This document shows, in pieces, positions 30,641-34,822 of a stretch of 46,144 bases of DNA. The DNA is from Fibrobacterota bacterium. Its GTDB lineage: Bacteria; Fibrobacterota; Fibrobacteria; UBA11236. The first letter of the stretch is position 1. The number at the start of each line of letters is the position of its first letter. Below the pieces are notes generated by a model. It did not search any database. It had not been told where the DNA came from and saw only the letters and a list, made by a program, of their open reading frames with translations. A program made the translations under genes and the position numbers. The stretch is taken from the NCBI GenBank assembly GCA_947482115.1, contig CANKII010000001.1, forward strand, positions 641,840 through 687,983, given 5' to 3'.

Positions 30641-31792
30641 ATGAGCTCTTCCACCCCTCCAAAATACCCCAGTGAATGGGTGAATGATCCCAAATCGCTG
30701 AAGCGCTGCGTTGTAGCAGTCGAAGTCTCGGAGCTAGTCTATTTCGACCTCGAAGCCGACAGCATGCATCACTATTACGCCAAAATCTGCCTGATGCAGG
30801 TATTGGCCAACGGAACGTGTTACGCCATTGACCCCCTTGCTGGATTGGATCTCAAACCGTTTCTCGCCGCTCTTGCGAAAAAAACCTTGATCGCTCACGG
30901 CTCGGATTATGACTTGCGCATGCTCTATCAGCAGCATGGCTTTCGACCCAAGGCTGTTTTTGACACAATGATCGCGGCACAACTGTTGGGCCGTACCGCT
31001 TTTGGCCTTGCCGCATTGGTGCAGGAATTCTTCGGTGTCACTCTCGGGAAAGAAGCCCAGAAGGCCGACTGGTCGCGCCGCCCCCTGCCGGAAGCCATGA
31101 TGGAGTACGCCGTTCACGACACTTTTTTTCTTCCCGGCCTCCACGAGAAACTCGTAAAAGAGTTGGAAGAAAAAGGTCGTTTGGGTTGGCACGAGGAGAG
31201 CTGCGAAGCGTTGATACGGGCCACCGAGCGCATAAAGGAAATCGATCCCGATTCCACATGGCGATTGACCGGATCGACAAAATATCATCCCCGTCAGCTG
31301 GCTGTTCTCAAGGCCATGTGGGAAGTTCGCGAAGAAGCCGCCAAAGCATCCGATATTCCGGGTTATAAAATCCTTCCTTCCGATATCATTCTCCGCTTTG
31401 CGGAATCCGTTCCTGATGAAGGCCAGCCGGAACAGATTCCGAGATTGCCTTCAAGACTTGAATCCGAATTACGCGAAAACTTTCTGGACGCATTTGAAAG
31501 CGCCCTAGCTTCCGACCCTAAAAAATGGCCCAAGCCCGTGCCTCCCTCGCGAAGGCCAGTAAAAAGCCCGCATCCCGATTTTTTGGCGGATTTACGCACC
31601 ATTCGCGACAAGATTGCGGCGGAACTCCATCTGGATCCGTCACTGCTCGCGCCCAAAGCCGTTTTACTCGCGGTAGCATTGACCGGACTTCGTGAGCCGG
31701 AAACAGCGCGCGAAGCGGCCGGATGGATGCGCTGGCAGGAAAATTTGTTGCTTGAACCGTGGATTGCAGGAACACAACGTTTTAGAAAATAA
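30641..31792 (+). CDS. rnd: Ribonuclease D
   Basis: A 383-residue DEDDy 3'-5' exoribonuclease involved in tRNA 3' maturation. The exonuclease motifs are Exo I FDLEAD (Asp36, Glu38), Exo II HGSDYDLRML (Asp91) and Exo III MEYAVHD (Tyr156, Asp160). One HRDC domain follows (HPRQLAVLKAMWEVREEAAKASDIP, about 217-280), and a further C-terminal helical region may be a second, diverged HRDC. The length is near that of E. coli RNase D. It is followed by the tat operon after 71 bases. Confidence 0.93.
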   Translation: MSSSTPPKYPSEWVNDPKSLKRCVVAVEVSELVYFDLEADSMHHYYAKICLMQVLANGTCYAIDPLAGLDLKPFLAALAKKTLIAHGSDYDLRMLYQQHGFRPKAVFDTMIAAQLLGRTAFGLAALVQEFFGVTLGKEAQKADWSRRPLPEAMMEYAVHDTFFLPGLHEKLVKELEEKGRLGWHEESCEALIRATERIKEIDPDSTWRLTGSTKYHPRQLAVLKAMWEVREEAAKASDIPGYKILPSDIILRFAESVPDEGQPEQIPRLPSRLESELRENFLDAFESALASDPKKWPKPVPPSRRPVKSPHPDFLADLRTIRDKIAAELHLDPSLLAPKAVLLAVALTGLREPETAREAAGWMRWQENLLLEPWIAGTQRFRK

Positions 31793-31863: not shown

Positions 31864-32082
31864 ATGTTTCGCAACATGGGACCCATGGAACTCATCATCA
31901 TTTTCCTCATTGTGGTTCTGCTTTTTGGAGGCCGCAAAATACCCGAAATCGCCAAGGGATTGGGAAAAGGCATTCGCGATTTCAAGGGCGCTTTGAGCGG
32001 CCAGGATTCTGATGAAGCCGAAAAAGCCAAGGCTTTGAAGAAATCGGAAAATCCCGGCGAGGATTCCGCTCCTAAAGCCTGA
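31864..32082 (+). CDS. tatA: Sec-independent translocase subunit TatA
   Basis: A 72-residue TatA. It has a very short periplasmic N-terminus, one membrane helix (MELIIIFLIVVLLF), the FGGRKIPEIAKGLGKGIRDFK hinge and amphipathic helix with the family's Phe-Gly, and an acidic/basic disordered tail. TatA oligomers form the pore of the twin-arginine system that exports folded proteins. AGGAG precedes the ATG. It heads a run with tatC and a TatB-like fusion. Confidence 0.95.
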   Translation: MFRNMGPMELIIIFLIVVLLFGGRKIPEIAKGLGKGIRDFKGALSGQDSDEAEKAKALKKSENPGEDSAPKA

Positions 32083-32106: not shown

Positions 32107-32829
32107 TTGTTCAACGCATCCACCTTCTGGGAACACCTCCAGGAGCTGCGCAGCCGAATTCTCAAATCCCTGATCGGACTTGCCGTAGGCACAGGGATTG
32201 CCTTTTGGCAATGGGAACGGCTATGGTACTGGATAGCGCGGCCCATTACCTCTCAACATTTGCAGGTGACTTTCATTGCCACTTCCCCCATGGAAACGGT
32301 GATGACCAGCTTCAAGCTGTCCCTCATCGCCGGATGCATTCTGGCCTTCCCGTGGGTGATGTGGCAAATCTGGAGTTTTCTCGCTCCGGGACTTCATCGC
32401 AAGGAACGAAAACTTTTTATGGGAACCTTTTTGGGTTTCATAGTCATGTTCGCTGGGGGCGCGGCCTTCTGTTATTTCACCGTTTTACCAGCGGGCTTGT
32501 CTTTTCTCGCATCATACATGCAGGGCACCATCACCCAAAGCTGGAAACAGGAGGACTTTGCGACCTTCATCATTCAGTTCCTGCTGGCTTTTGGTTTAAT
32601 CTTCCAACTTCCCGTGGTCACTTTCGTGTTGGGACGGCTGGGTCTGCTGACTCCCCGGGGCATGTGGGGCTTTTTCAAACTGGCCCTCGTCATCATCTTC
32701 ATCGTGGCCGCTTTGTTGACGCCGGGACCTGATCCGGTATCACAACTCATGATGGCGATACCCCTCTGTCTCCTCTATATTATCTCCATCGGTGTATGCG
32801 CTCTGGCGCAAAAGAAGGAACAGAGGTAA
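32107..32829 (+). CDS. tatC: Sec-independent translocase subunit TatC
   Basis: A 240-residue six-span inner-membrane protein that recognises twin-arginine signal peptides. Signatures are TFWEHLQELRSRI at the N-terminus, SPMETVMTSFKLSLIAG, FPWVMWQIWSFLAPGLHRKERK and a late LLTPGPDPVSQLMMAIPL. The start is TTG at 32107; no better in-frame start explains the conserved N-terminus, and no clear Shine-Dalgarno is visible. The stop lies 4 bases before the GTG of the TatB-like/cyclo-ligase fusion, so the genes are coupled. Confidence 0.95.
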   Translation: MFNASTFWEHLQELRSRILKSLIGLAVGTGIAFWQWERLWYWIARPITSQHLQVTFIATSPMETVMTSFKLSLIAGCILAFPWVMWQIWSFLAPGLHRKERKLFMGTFLGFIVMFAGGAAFCYFTVLPAGLSFLASYMQGTITQSWKQEDFATFIIQFLLAFGLIFQLPVVTFVLGRLGLLTPRGMWGFFKLALVIIFIVAALLTPGPDPVSQLMMAIPLCLLYIISIGVCALAQKKEQR

Positions 32830-32833
32830 GGCG

Positions 32834-33664
32834 GTGATTTTCGATTCTCTCGGCATAGGCGAAATCGGTGTCATCGCCGTGGTGGCCATCCTGTTTGTCG
32901 ATCCCAAAAAGGTCGGCGCGGCTGGCCGTGCCTTCGCCCGTTTCCGGAAAAAATGGAACAACATCCAGCGCGAGGTGAAACAGCAGTTCAACGCCCTGGC
33001 TCTTGAGGAGGATCTCAAAAATAATTTGACGGACATCCGCACAGCCAAGACGGCTCTTCGTGCGGAAGCCAGGGATGTTTTGAGAACTCTTCCCGCGGCG
33101 GAACGCGCAGCGTCAGCGGAAAAAATCCTGGCTCGATTCAAAGAATGGCCCTCCTTTCAGGAGGCAAAGGTCGTGGCTGCCTTCACCGGTTCCCATGGAG
33201 AAGTGGACACGGAAAATATTTTGCGTCATGTGCTGGCTTCCGGAAAAACCCTGTTGCTTCCCTACATCGGCTCCTCGGCGGATGGGAATTCGCGCATGTT
33301 CATGGCCGCCATCCGGAATTATGATCAGGATTTGCATGAAGGCGCATTCGGGATTTTGGAACCGTTGGTACGGGCGTCCGCCGCGGCGGATGCCCCAACG
33401 GTTCCAGAACCCGATCTAATCCTGATACCGGGTTTGGCGTTCGATGAACGCGGCGGCCGCGTGGGGCGCGGAAAAGGATTTTACGATCGCTATCTGGATG
33501 GAAAAAGCGCACTCAAAGTTGGTGTCGCATTTGAAGCGCAACTGCTGCGCAAAAAATTAGCTTTGGAGCCTCACGATCAGCTTTTGGACGGGCTCGTGAC
33601 GGAGCAGCGGCTTTTGAGTTTTTCGAAGCCCACCTCATCAAATTCTCAAAGTCCGGCGGGATAA
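32834..33664 (+). CDS. TatB-like domain fused to 5-formyltetrahydrofolate cyclo-ligase
   Basis: A 276-residue two-domain protein. Residues 1-60 look like TatB/TatA: FDSLGIGEIGVIAVVAILF as membrane helix with the conserved Glu, then DPKKVGAAGRAFARFRKKW as basic amphipathic helix; the usual hinge Gly is Asp. Residues 70-265 are a full 5-FTHF cyclo-ligase: KTALRAEARDVLRTLPAAER (ATP site), FTGSHGEVDTENIL, DLILIPGLAFDERGGRVGRGKGFYDRYLDG. The ligase makes 5,10-methenyl-THF from folinic acid using ATP. GTG 32834 is preceded by AGGTAAGG; ATG 32792 would overlap tatC. The stop is 3 bases before carA. It probably supplies both TatB and the ligase at the membrane. Confidence 0.88.
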   Translation: MIFDSLGIGEIGVIAVVAILFVDPKKVGAAGRAFARFRKKWNNIQREVKQQFNALALEEDLKNNLTDIRTAKTALRAEARDVLRTLPAAERAASAEKILARFKEWPSFQEAKVVAAFTGSHGEVDTENILRHVLASGKTLLLPYIGSSADGNSRMFMAAIRNYDQDLHEGAFGILEPLVRASAAADAPTVPEPDLILIPGLAFDERGGRVGRGKGFYDRYLDGKSALKVGVAFEAQLLRKKLALEPHDQLLDGLVTEQRLLSFSKPTSSNSQSPAG

Positions 33665-33667
33665 ATC

Positions 33668-34822
33668 ATGCAAGCGGTTCTGGCTCTGGAAGACGGCAAT
33701 TACTTCGAAGGTGAAGGCTTCGGCGCGGAAGGACGTCGCGAAGGCGAAGTGTGTTTCAACACGTCGATGACGGGTTATCAGGAAATCCTCACCGATCCTT
33801 CATACGCCGGTCAAATCGTCACCCTCACCTACCCTGAAATAGGAAACTACGGCGTCAACCCCGAAGATGTGGAATCGACTCGCATTCAGGCTTCCGGATT
33901 AATCGTGAAAAACGTTTGTCCCTATCCTTCCAACTATCGTTCAGAAGAGCAAAAGGGTCAGCCCGTCACCATCTCCGAATACTTGCAACGCCAGGGCATC
34001 CCCGGCATTCAGGGAATCGACACACGCCGTCTCGTCCGCATCCTCAGGGAAACAGGAGCCAAGAATGGCGTGTTGGTGACCGGAAAATATGACTTGAAGG
34101 AAGTGCTGGAAAGCGCGAAGCGCGTGCAATCCATTTCCGAAACAGATTATGTCCTCAAAACCACCACACCAAATCAAAGCCAATGGACTACGGGTGAAAA
34201 CGAACTTGCTTTCCATGTTCCAGCAGCGCGTCCCGAACATTGGACCATTGCCGCCATTGACTATGGTGTGAAGCACAATATTCTTCGCAAGCTGCGCGAC
34301 CTCGGCGCCAAAGTGGAACGTTTTCCCGCCACGGCCACAGCTGAACAAATTTTGGCCGTGAAACCCGACGGCGTATTGCTCAGCAATGGGCCGGGCGATC
34401 CCGCCGTGCTGGACTACGCGGTTGATACCATCAAAGGGTTGATCGGCAAACAACCCATCTTCGGAATTTGCCTCGGTCATCAACTTTTGGCGCGTGCCTT
34501 GGGTGGAAAAACGTTCAAGCTGAAATTCGGACATCGCGGTGCGAATCATCCCGTGCAGGATTTGCGTTCCTCCAAGGTGGAGATCACTTCGCAGAATCAC
34601 GGCTTTGCGGTCGATCCCAAAAGCCTGAACCTGAACGAGGTTGAAGTCACGCATCTCAACCTCAACGATGATACCGTGGCGGGTTTGCGGCACAAGACTT
34701 TGCCTGCCTTTTCCGTACAATATCATCCTGAAGCCAGCCCGGGCCCGAAGGATTCCCATTATCTCTTCGAAGAATTTCTCAAATCGGTAGAGGAATTCGC
34801 AGCACATGCCAAGACGCATTGA
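33668..34822 (+). CDS. carA: Carbamoyl-phosphate synthase small subunit
   Basis: A 384-residue glutaminase subunit that passes ammonia to CarB for carbamoyl-phosphate, feeding arginine and pyrimidine synthesis. The N-terminal domain has LALEDGNYFEGEGFGAEG, CFNTSMTGYQEILTDPSYAGQIVTLTYPEIGNYG and PGIQGIDTRRLVRILRE. The class I amidotransferase domain has SNGPGDPAVLDYAV, the nucleophile in FGICLGHQLLARALGG, and the His-Glu pair in VQYHPEASPGPKDS. carB is not in the window. The start lies 3 bases after the fusion gene, and the 3' end overlaps rlmB by 17 bases. Confidence 0.96.
   Translation: MQAVLALEDGNYFEGEGFGAEGRREGEVCFNTSMTGYQEILTDPSYAGQIVTLTYPEIGNYGVNPEDVESTRIQASGLIVKNVCPYPSNYRSEEQKGQPVTISEYLQRQGIPGIQGIDTRRLVRILRETGAKNGVLVTGKYDLKEVLESAKRVQSISETDYVLKTTTPNQSQWTTGENELAFHVPAARPEHWTIAAIDYGVKHNILRKLRDLGAKVERFPATATAEQILAVKPDGVLLSNGPGDPAVLDYAVDTIKGLIGKQPIFGICLGHQLLARALGGKTFKLKFGHRGANHPVQDLRSSKVEITSQNHGFAVDPKSLNLNEVEVTHLNLNDDTVAGLRHKTLPAFSVQYHPEASPGPKDSHYLFEEFLKSVEEFAAHAKTH

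Follow-up and report, generated by a model that had tools for sequence, protein, structure and literature searches.

In the window, that is, the whole stretch of 46,144 nucleotides from a Fibrobacterota bacterium analysed here, the gene that follows tatC joins a TatB-type membrane domain and a complete 5-formyltetrahydrofolate cyclo-ligase in a single reading frame, and this arrangement recurs across much of the phylum. The encoded protein is probably the TatB subunit of the cell, carrying the ligase as a cytoplasmic C-terminal domain, with each half doing its own job. TatB is a core component of the machinery that exports folded proteins, and is normally described as a small membrane protein. 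The fusion genuinely exists and is of old origin. It appears to be undescribed: no account of a TatB-ligase fusion turned up in the open-access papers searched. Since TatB and a metabolic enzyme so often form a single chain in this phylum, nature itself provides an experiment on the loads that the TatBC receptor can carry, and the repeated natural splittings of this chain are available for comparison.

The fusion gene and its operon

The gene and its neighbours in the window are the following:

30641..31792, + strand: rnd, RNase D type 3'-5' exonuclease with HRDC; upstream neighbour, fused to the ligase in genus g11
31864..32082, + strand: tatA; PF02416 65 bits, scores as tatAE, over the cut-off
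32107..32829, + strand: tatC; PF00902 222.7 bits, aligned to 9dzz chain A
32834..33664, + strand: TatB::5-formyltetrahydrofolate cyclo-ligase fusion gene; 276 aa, GTG start; supported by the open frame, Pfam and NCBIfam, and by conservation in 46 genomes
33668..34822, + strand: carA; downstream neighbour, from domain search and synteny

In the window sequence the fusion frame runs uninterrupted from the GTG at 32834 to the stop codon ending at 33664, 4 bases after the end of tatC (32829) and 3 bases before the start of carA (33668). The first-pass annotation had described a single frame holding a TatB-type and a complete ligase domain, placed between tatC and carA without a separate tatB; the open frame and the Pfam and NCBIfam matches agree with the former, the coordinates with its place in the operon, and a whole-genome search with the lack of a separate tatB. 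In fact, in the window genome (2.7 Mb, 99.4% complete) no second TatB was detected, the additional TatA/B matches obtained at a loose threshold being only the fusion and a short stop-containing piece, and a separate tatB elsewhere in this genome was therefore rejected. The same search returned one TatA over the cut-off, which is the separate tatA beside tatC, and one 5-formyltetrahydrofolate ligase, which is the fusion itself. Further downstream, an rlmB-type RNA methyltransferase frame, if counted from the first ATG as listed, shares 17 bases (34806-34822) with the end of carA.

Identity of the TatB-type domain

The TatB-type domain covers residues 6-60 of the fusion and comprises two segments:

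32855..32899, + strand: TatB-type membrane helix, residues 8-22 (predicted by AlphaFold2), holding the invariant Glu10 (codon 32861-32863)
32903..33013, + strand: TatB-type amphipathic helix, about residues 24-60, starting from Pro24 (within the predicted helix 24-84; hydrophobic moment)

Curated profiles detect this domain below their thresholds: the Pfam TatA_B_E match at residues 6-34 reaches 17.4 bits against a cut-off of 21, and the NCBIfam tatB model TIGR01410 matches residues 6-71 with an E-value of 6.6e-8 and 32-33 bits, below the equivalog cut-off of 56.5. Such sub-cut-off scores may be the reason that annotation overlooks tatB in genomes of this kind. When the domain profile was compared with solved structures, TatB chains came first (9e02, 2e-11; E. 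coli TatB 2mi2, 2e-10) and E. coli TatA well behind; within NCBIfam, the fused domain scores as tatB and the TatA of the window as tatAE. The domain is thus matched best by TatB rather than TatA profiles, though below the curated equivalog cut-off, and these scores rule out that it is a second TatA.

AlphaFold2, run on the family alignment (mean pLDDT 88), predicts a helix at residues 8-22, a break before Pro24, a single helix at 24-84 that continues into the ligase and then the ligase fold itself. For residues 25-50 the hydrophobic moment reaches 0.53, compared with an average of 0.24 after shuffling, so that model and moment together show the TatB order of membrane helix, break and amphipathic helix. 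Near the start of the membrane helix lies Glu10, the only residue shared by all 32 TatB domains compared, fused and free. It aligns with Glu8 of E. coli TatB, which forms a polar cluster with TatC there, and the substitution E8A abolishes TatB-TatC binding (PMC5201420). Thr205 and Gln213 of the window TatC align, against 9dzz chain A, with Thr208 and Gln215 of E. coli TatC, which belong to the TatB-binding polar cluster. The domain is similar to the TatB of E. coli-type TatABC systems (TIGR01410; 2mi2, 9dzz) in having the key Glu on a short membrane helix at its N-terminus, in its amphipathic helix, in being encoded in a tat operon and in its best profile match; it differs in bearing an enzyme domain as its tail, in the position of its gene after and not before tatC, and in the replacement of the hinge Gly in the class of the window.

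The hinge Gly-Pro motif is Asp-Pro in the window and Gly-Ser in most fused members outside its class, which have an FFGSKE-type hinge. The Gly is Asp in the genus of the window and Asp, Lys, Ser or Asn in relatives; because the free TatBs of the phylum also lack it, having Asp or Asn instead, we treated the hinge as variable. The Asp had been singled out beforehand as unusual: the substitution is real but not special, since relatives and stand-alone TatBs vary in the same way. Judged from these alignments, the change appears to characterise the lineage and not to signal that function has altered, and the idea that the Asp marks a loss of function is weakened, since stand-alone TatBs carry such changes.

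The ligase domain

The second half of the protein contains the following features:

33047..33604, + strand: 5-formyltetrahydrofolate cyclo-ligase domain, residues 72-257; PF01812 132.8 bits (cut-off 27) over the full profile length, fold matching 2jcb and human MTHFS 3hy6
33464..33487, + strand: ligase motif GRGKGFYD, residues 211-218, with invariant or nearly invariant columns G211, G213, G215, Y217 and D218

NCBIfam TIGR02727 gives 130.4 bits on the fusion against a cut-off of 84.9, and so the domain is full-length and over the curated cut-off with both models; it also has the GxGxGxYD motif, and its predicted fold matches that of solved cyclo-ligases. Moreover, Lys72 and Arg76 align with Lys10 and Arg14 of human MTHFS. 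The domain is thus as complete as in known 5-formyltetrahydrofolate cyclo-ligases (MTHFS; PF01812, TIGR02727; 2jcb, 3hy6), sharing their motif and fold; whereas the solved enzymes have about 190-200 residues and no membrane segment, here the ligase is joined to a membrane domain.

Some fused members deviate from this description. In genera g8, g10 and g16 (L094, L097, L100, L174, L210, L211) the N-terminal ligase segment with the Lys10/Arg14 equivalents is missing and the TatB helix runs directly into the shortened ligase; because of this missing segment, ligase activity may differ in these proteins. In another one (L091, genome G007) a premature TAG lies in the ligase domain just past the GKGKGF motif, representing either a sequencing error or a broken gene.

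Conservation and distribution of the fusion

A search of 168 Fibrobacterota genomes, carried out once with the aligned fusions and once with the TatB domain alone, revealed the TatB domain and the ligase in one frame in 46 of them, inside and outside the class of the window; the families outside this class are f7 and f9 to f14. In 45 of the 46, tatC is immediately upstream of the fusion. The remaining genome (G100; L195, L218) has tatA directly upstream, and its tatC lies on another contig. Within the class of the window the order is trpS, rnd, tatA, tatC, fusion, often carA, and then rlmB; outside the class rlmB is mostly upstream and on the other strand, and the order tatA-tatC-fusion is usually kept. 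A ribosome-binding-like AGGAG precedes many of the fusion starts.

Between the window and its closest relative (L084) identity is 96% in the TatB part and 69% in the ligase, the TatB part being the best conserved. Pairs with unsaturated dS show purifying selection in all three segments of the gene (TatB, linker and ligase), their dN/dS being far less than one. The presence of the fusion in 45 further genomes of the phylum and purifying selection across the junction rule out chance, a frameshift or an assembly error. The first-pass annotation had proposed that a Tat receptor subunit may carry a metabolic domain and that conservation in related genomes would speak for it; this conservation was found, and together with the operon slot and the lack of another tatB it supports the proposal at the level of sequence.

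In a scan of genome contigs that also reached beyond the phylum, among the best 80 of 534 ligase loci, TatB domains were found only in L003-L005, which match phylum genomes already counted; given this limited sample, it is possible that the fusion is confined to Fibrobacterota. In a tree of the ligase domain, whose deep branches are weak or unresolved and whose rows L089 and L194 are fragments, the unfused Fibrobacterota ligases nest in two groups that also hold fused members, a placement that fits a fusion of old origin which was lost again in some lineages.

Lineages in which the two halves are separate

A stand-alone small TatB is encoded right after tatC in 18 genomes of the phylum whose ligase is not fused to TatB (genera g11, g21, g28 and g31). 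These TatBs (53-54 residues in g11 and g28) resemble the fused domain in their slot after tatC, in the Glu and in the type of hinge substitution; they differ from it in being unfused, the ligase of the same genomes being elsewhere and without a TatB domain. In g6, g7, g9, g13 and g14, where no tatC was found, the ligase stays at the same locus and lacks the TatB domain; more generally, this domain was not found in phylum genomes without tatC. Because of these two patterns, the post-tatC slot can be said to hold a TatB, fused or free, in these lineages, and no such domain was detected where tatC is missing.

The ligase has also taken other partners. In g11 tatA-tatC lies elsewhere and is followed at once by a stand-alone TatB of 54 residues, and the cyclo-ligase is appended C-terminally to an RNase D-type exonuclease that has an HRDC domain (frames of 585-610 aa; L098, L106, L107, L112), as if tatA-tatC-tatB had been lost from between rnd and the ligase. 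In family f5 (L110, L111) the C-terminal end of the ligase continues into a large membrane protein that matches DUF2142 weakly. Genus g4 has tatA-tatC elsewhere, and no TatB was found behind its tatC; its ligases (L176-L183, L189) carry a hydrophobic N-terminal helix without the TatB Glu, even where no tatC was found, and this helix may be a degenerate TatB that was retained for anchoring.

Function of the fusion protein

In the reading that we favour, which is also the simplest and in which TatB and ligase are two independent functions of one chain, the N-terminal helix would sit in the inner membrane and bind TatC through Glu10, and the amphipathic helix would cover the bound signal peptide in the manner of other TatBs. 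On the cytoplasmic side the ligase would recycle 5-formyltetrahydrofolate to 5,10-methenyltetrahydrofolate near its substrates, the protein presumably accumulating uncleaved and at full length. The tail of TatB faces the cytoplasm, where the substrates of the ligase are also found; therefore neither half would have to be oriented differently in the fusion. It probably originated in early Fibrobacterota from adjacent, co-directional tatC, tatB and ligase genes and was undone several times later, and the membrane tethering of the ligase would be a by-product. Two observations count against this reading: the window protein scores below the curated cut-offs of the TatB profiles, and the ligases of g8, g10 and g16 are without their N-terminal segment. 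The bare ligases of genomes without tatC and the stand-alone TatBs of genomes with an unfused ligase argue that the halves do separate jobs.

A functional coupling of the halves, in which Tat is controlled by the ligase domain or the ligase is brought to the membrane by TatB, a link between folate or ATP status and export having been selected, is unlikely in our view. The persistence of the fusion inside and outside the class of the window speaks for it, as do the predicted long helix, which would join the halves without a floppy linker, and the g4 ligases, which keep a hydrophobic N-terminal helix even though TatB features are lost, also where no tatC was found. However, the halves were repeatedly separated, with free TatB in 18 genomes and bare ligase in the tatC-less genera, which argues against obligate coupling; moreover, the ligase has been joined to other partners (RNase D, a membrane protein), the linker is not of constant length and some fused members lack the N-terminus of the ligase. 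There is only a small chance that the Tat receptor complex permanently includes the folate enzyme in a large part of Fibrobacterota, with one-carbon metabolism sitting on or sensing export and the anchored ligases of g4 as the remnant of a selected membrane location; if the halves were coupled, folate metabolism would be linked to protein export.

It is quite improbable that the gene gives two products, a free soluble ligase being made in addition from an internal start in the linker or by proteolysis. The window does have a TTG at residue 65, downstream of a GAGGAGG stretch, but no possible start codon is present in the linker of a member of the same genus (L085), and among relatives the positions are not the same; an internal start as a conserved feature was rejected on these grounds.

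Least probable of all, and very unlikely, is that the N-terminal segment is a TatB-derived membrane anchor only and that Tat runs as TatA-TatC: the loss of the hinge Gly and of the following LP motif in the class of the window is in line with it, as is g4, with tatA-tatC, no TatB found behind tatC and a ligase that has no more than an anchor-like helix. Against it stand the invariance of Glu10, the identity of 96% in the TatB segment of the closest pair, where the ligase reaches 69%, the same hinge changes in stand-alone TatBs, and the failure to detect the domain in any genome lacking tatC.

Candidate substrates for the system are also in line with the fusion being the TatB of the cell: a sampling of the window genome with two signal-peptide models retrieved probable Tat cargo, namely frames with the signal motifs SRRNFFKTSG and SRRRFLQVMG.
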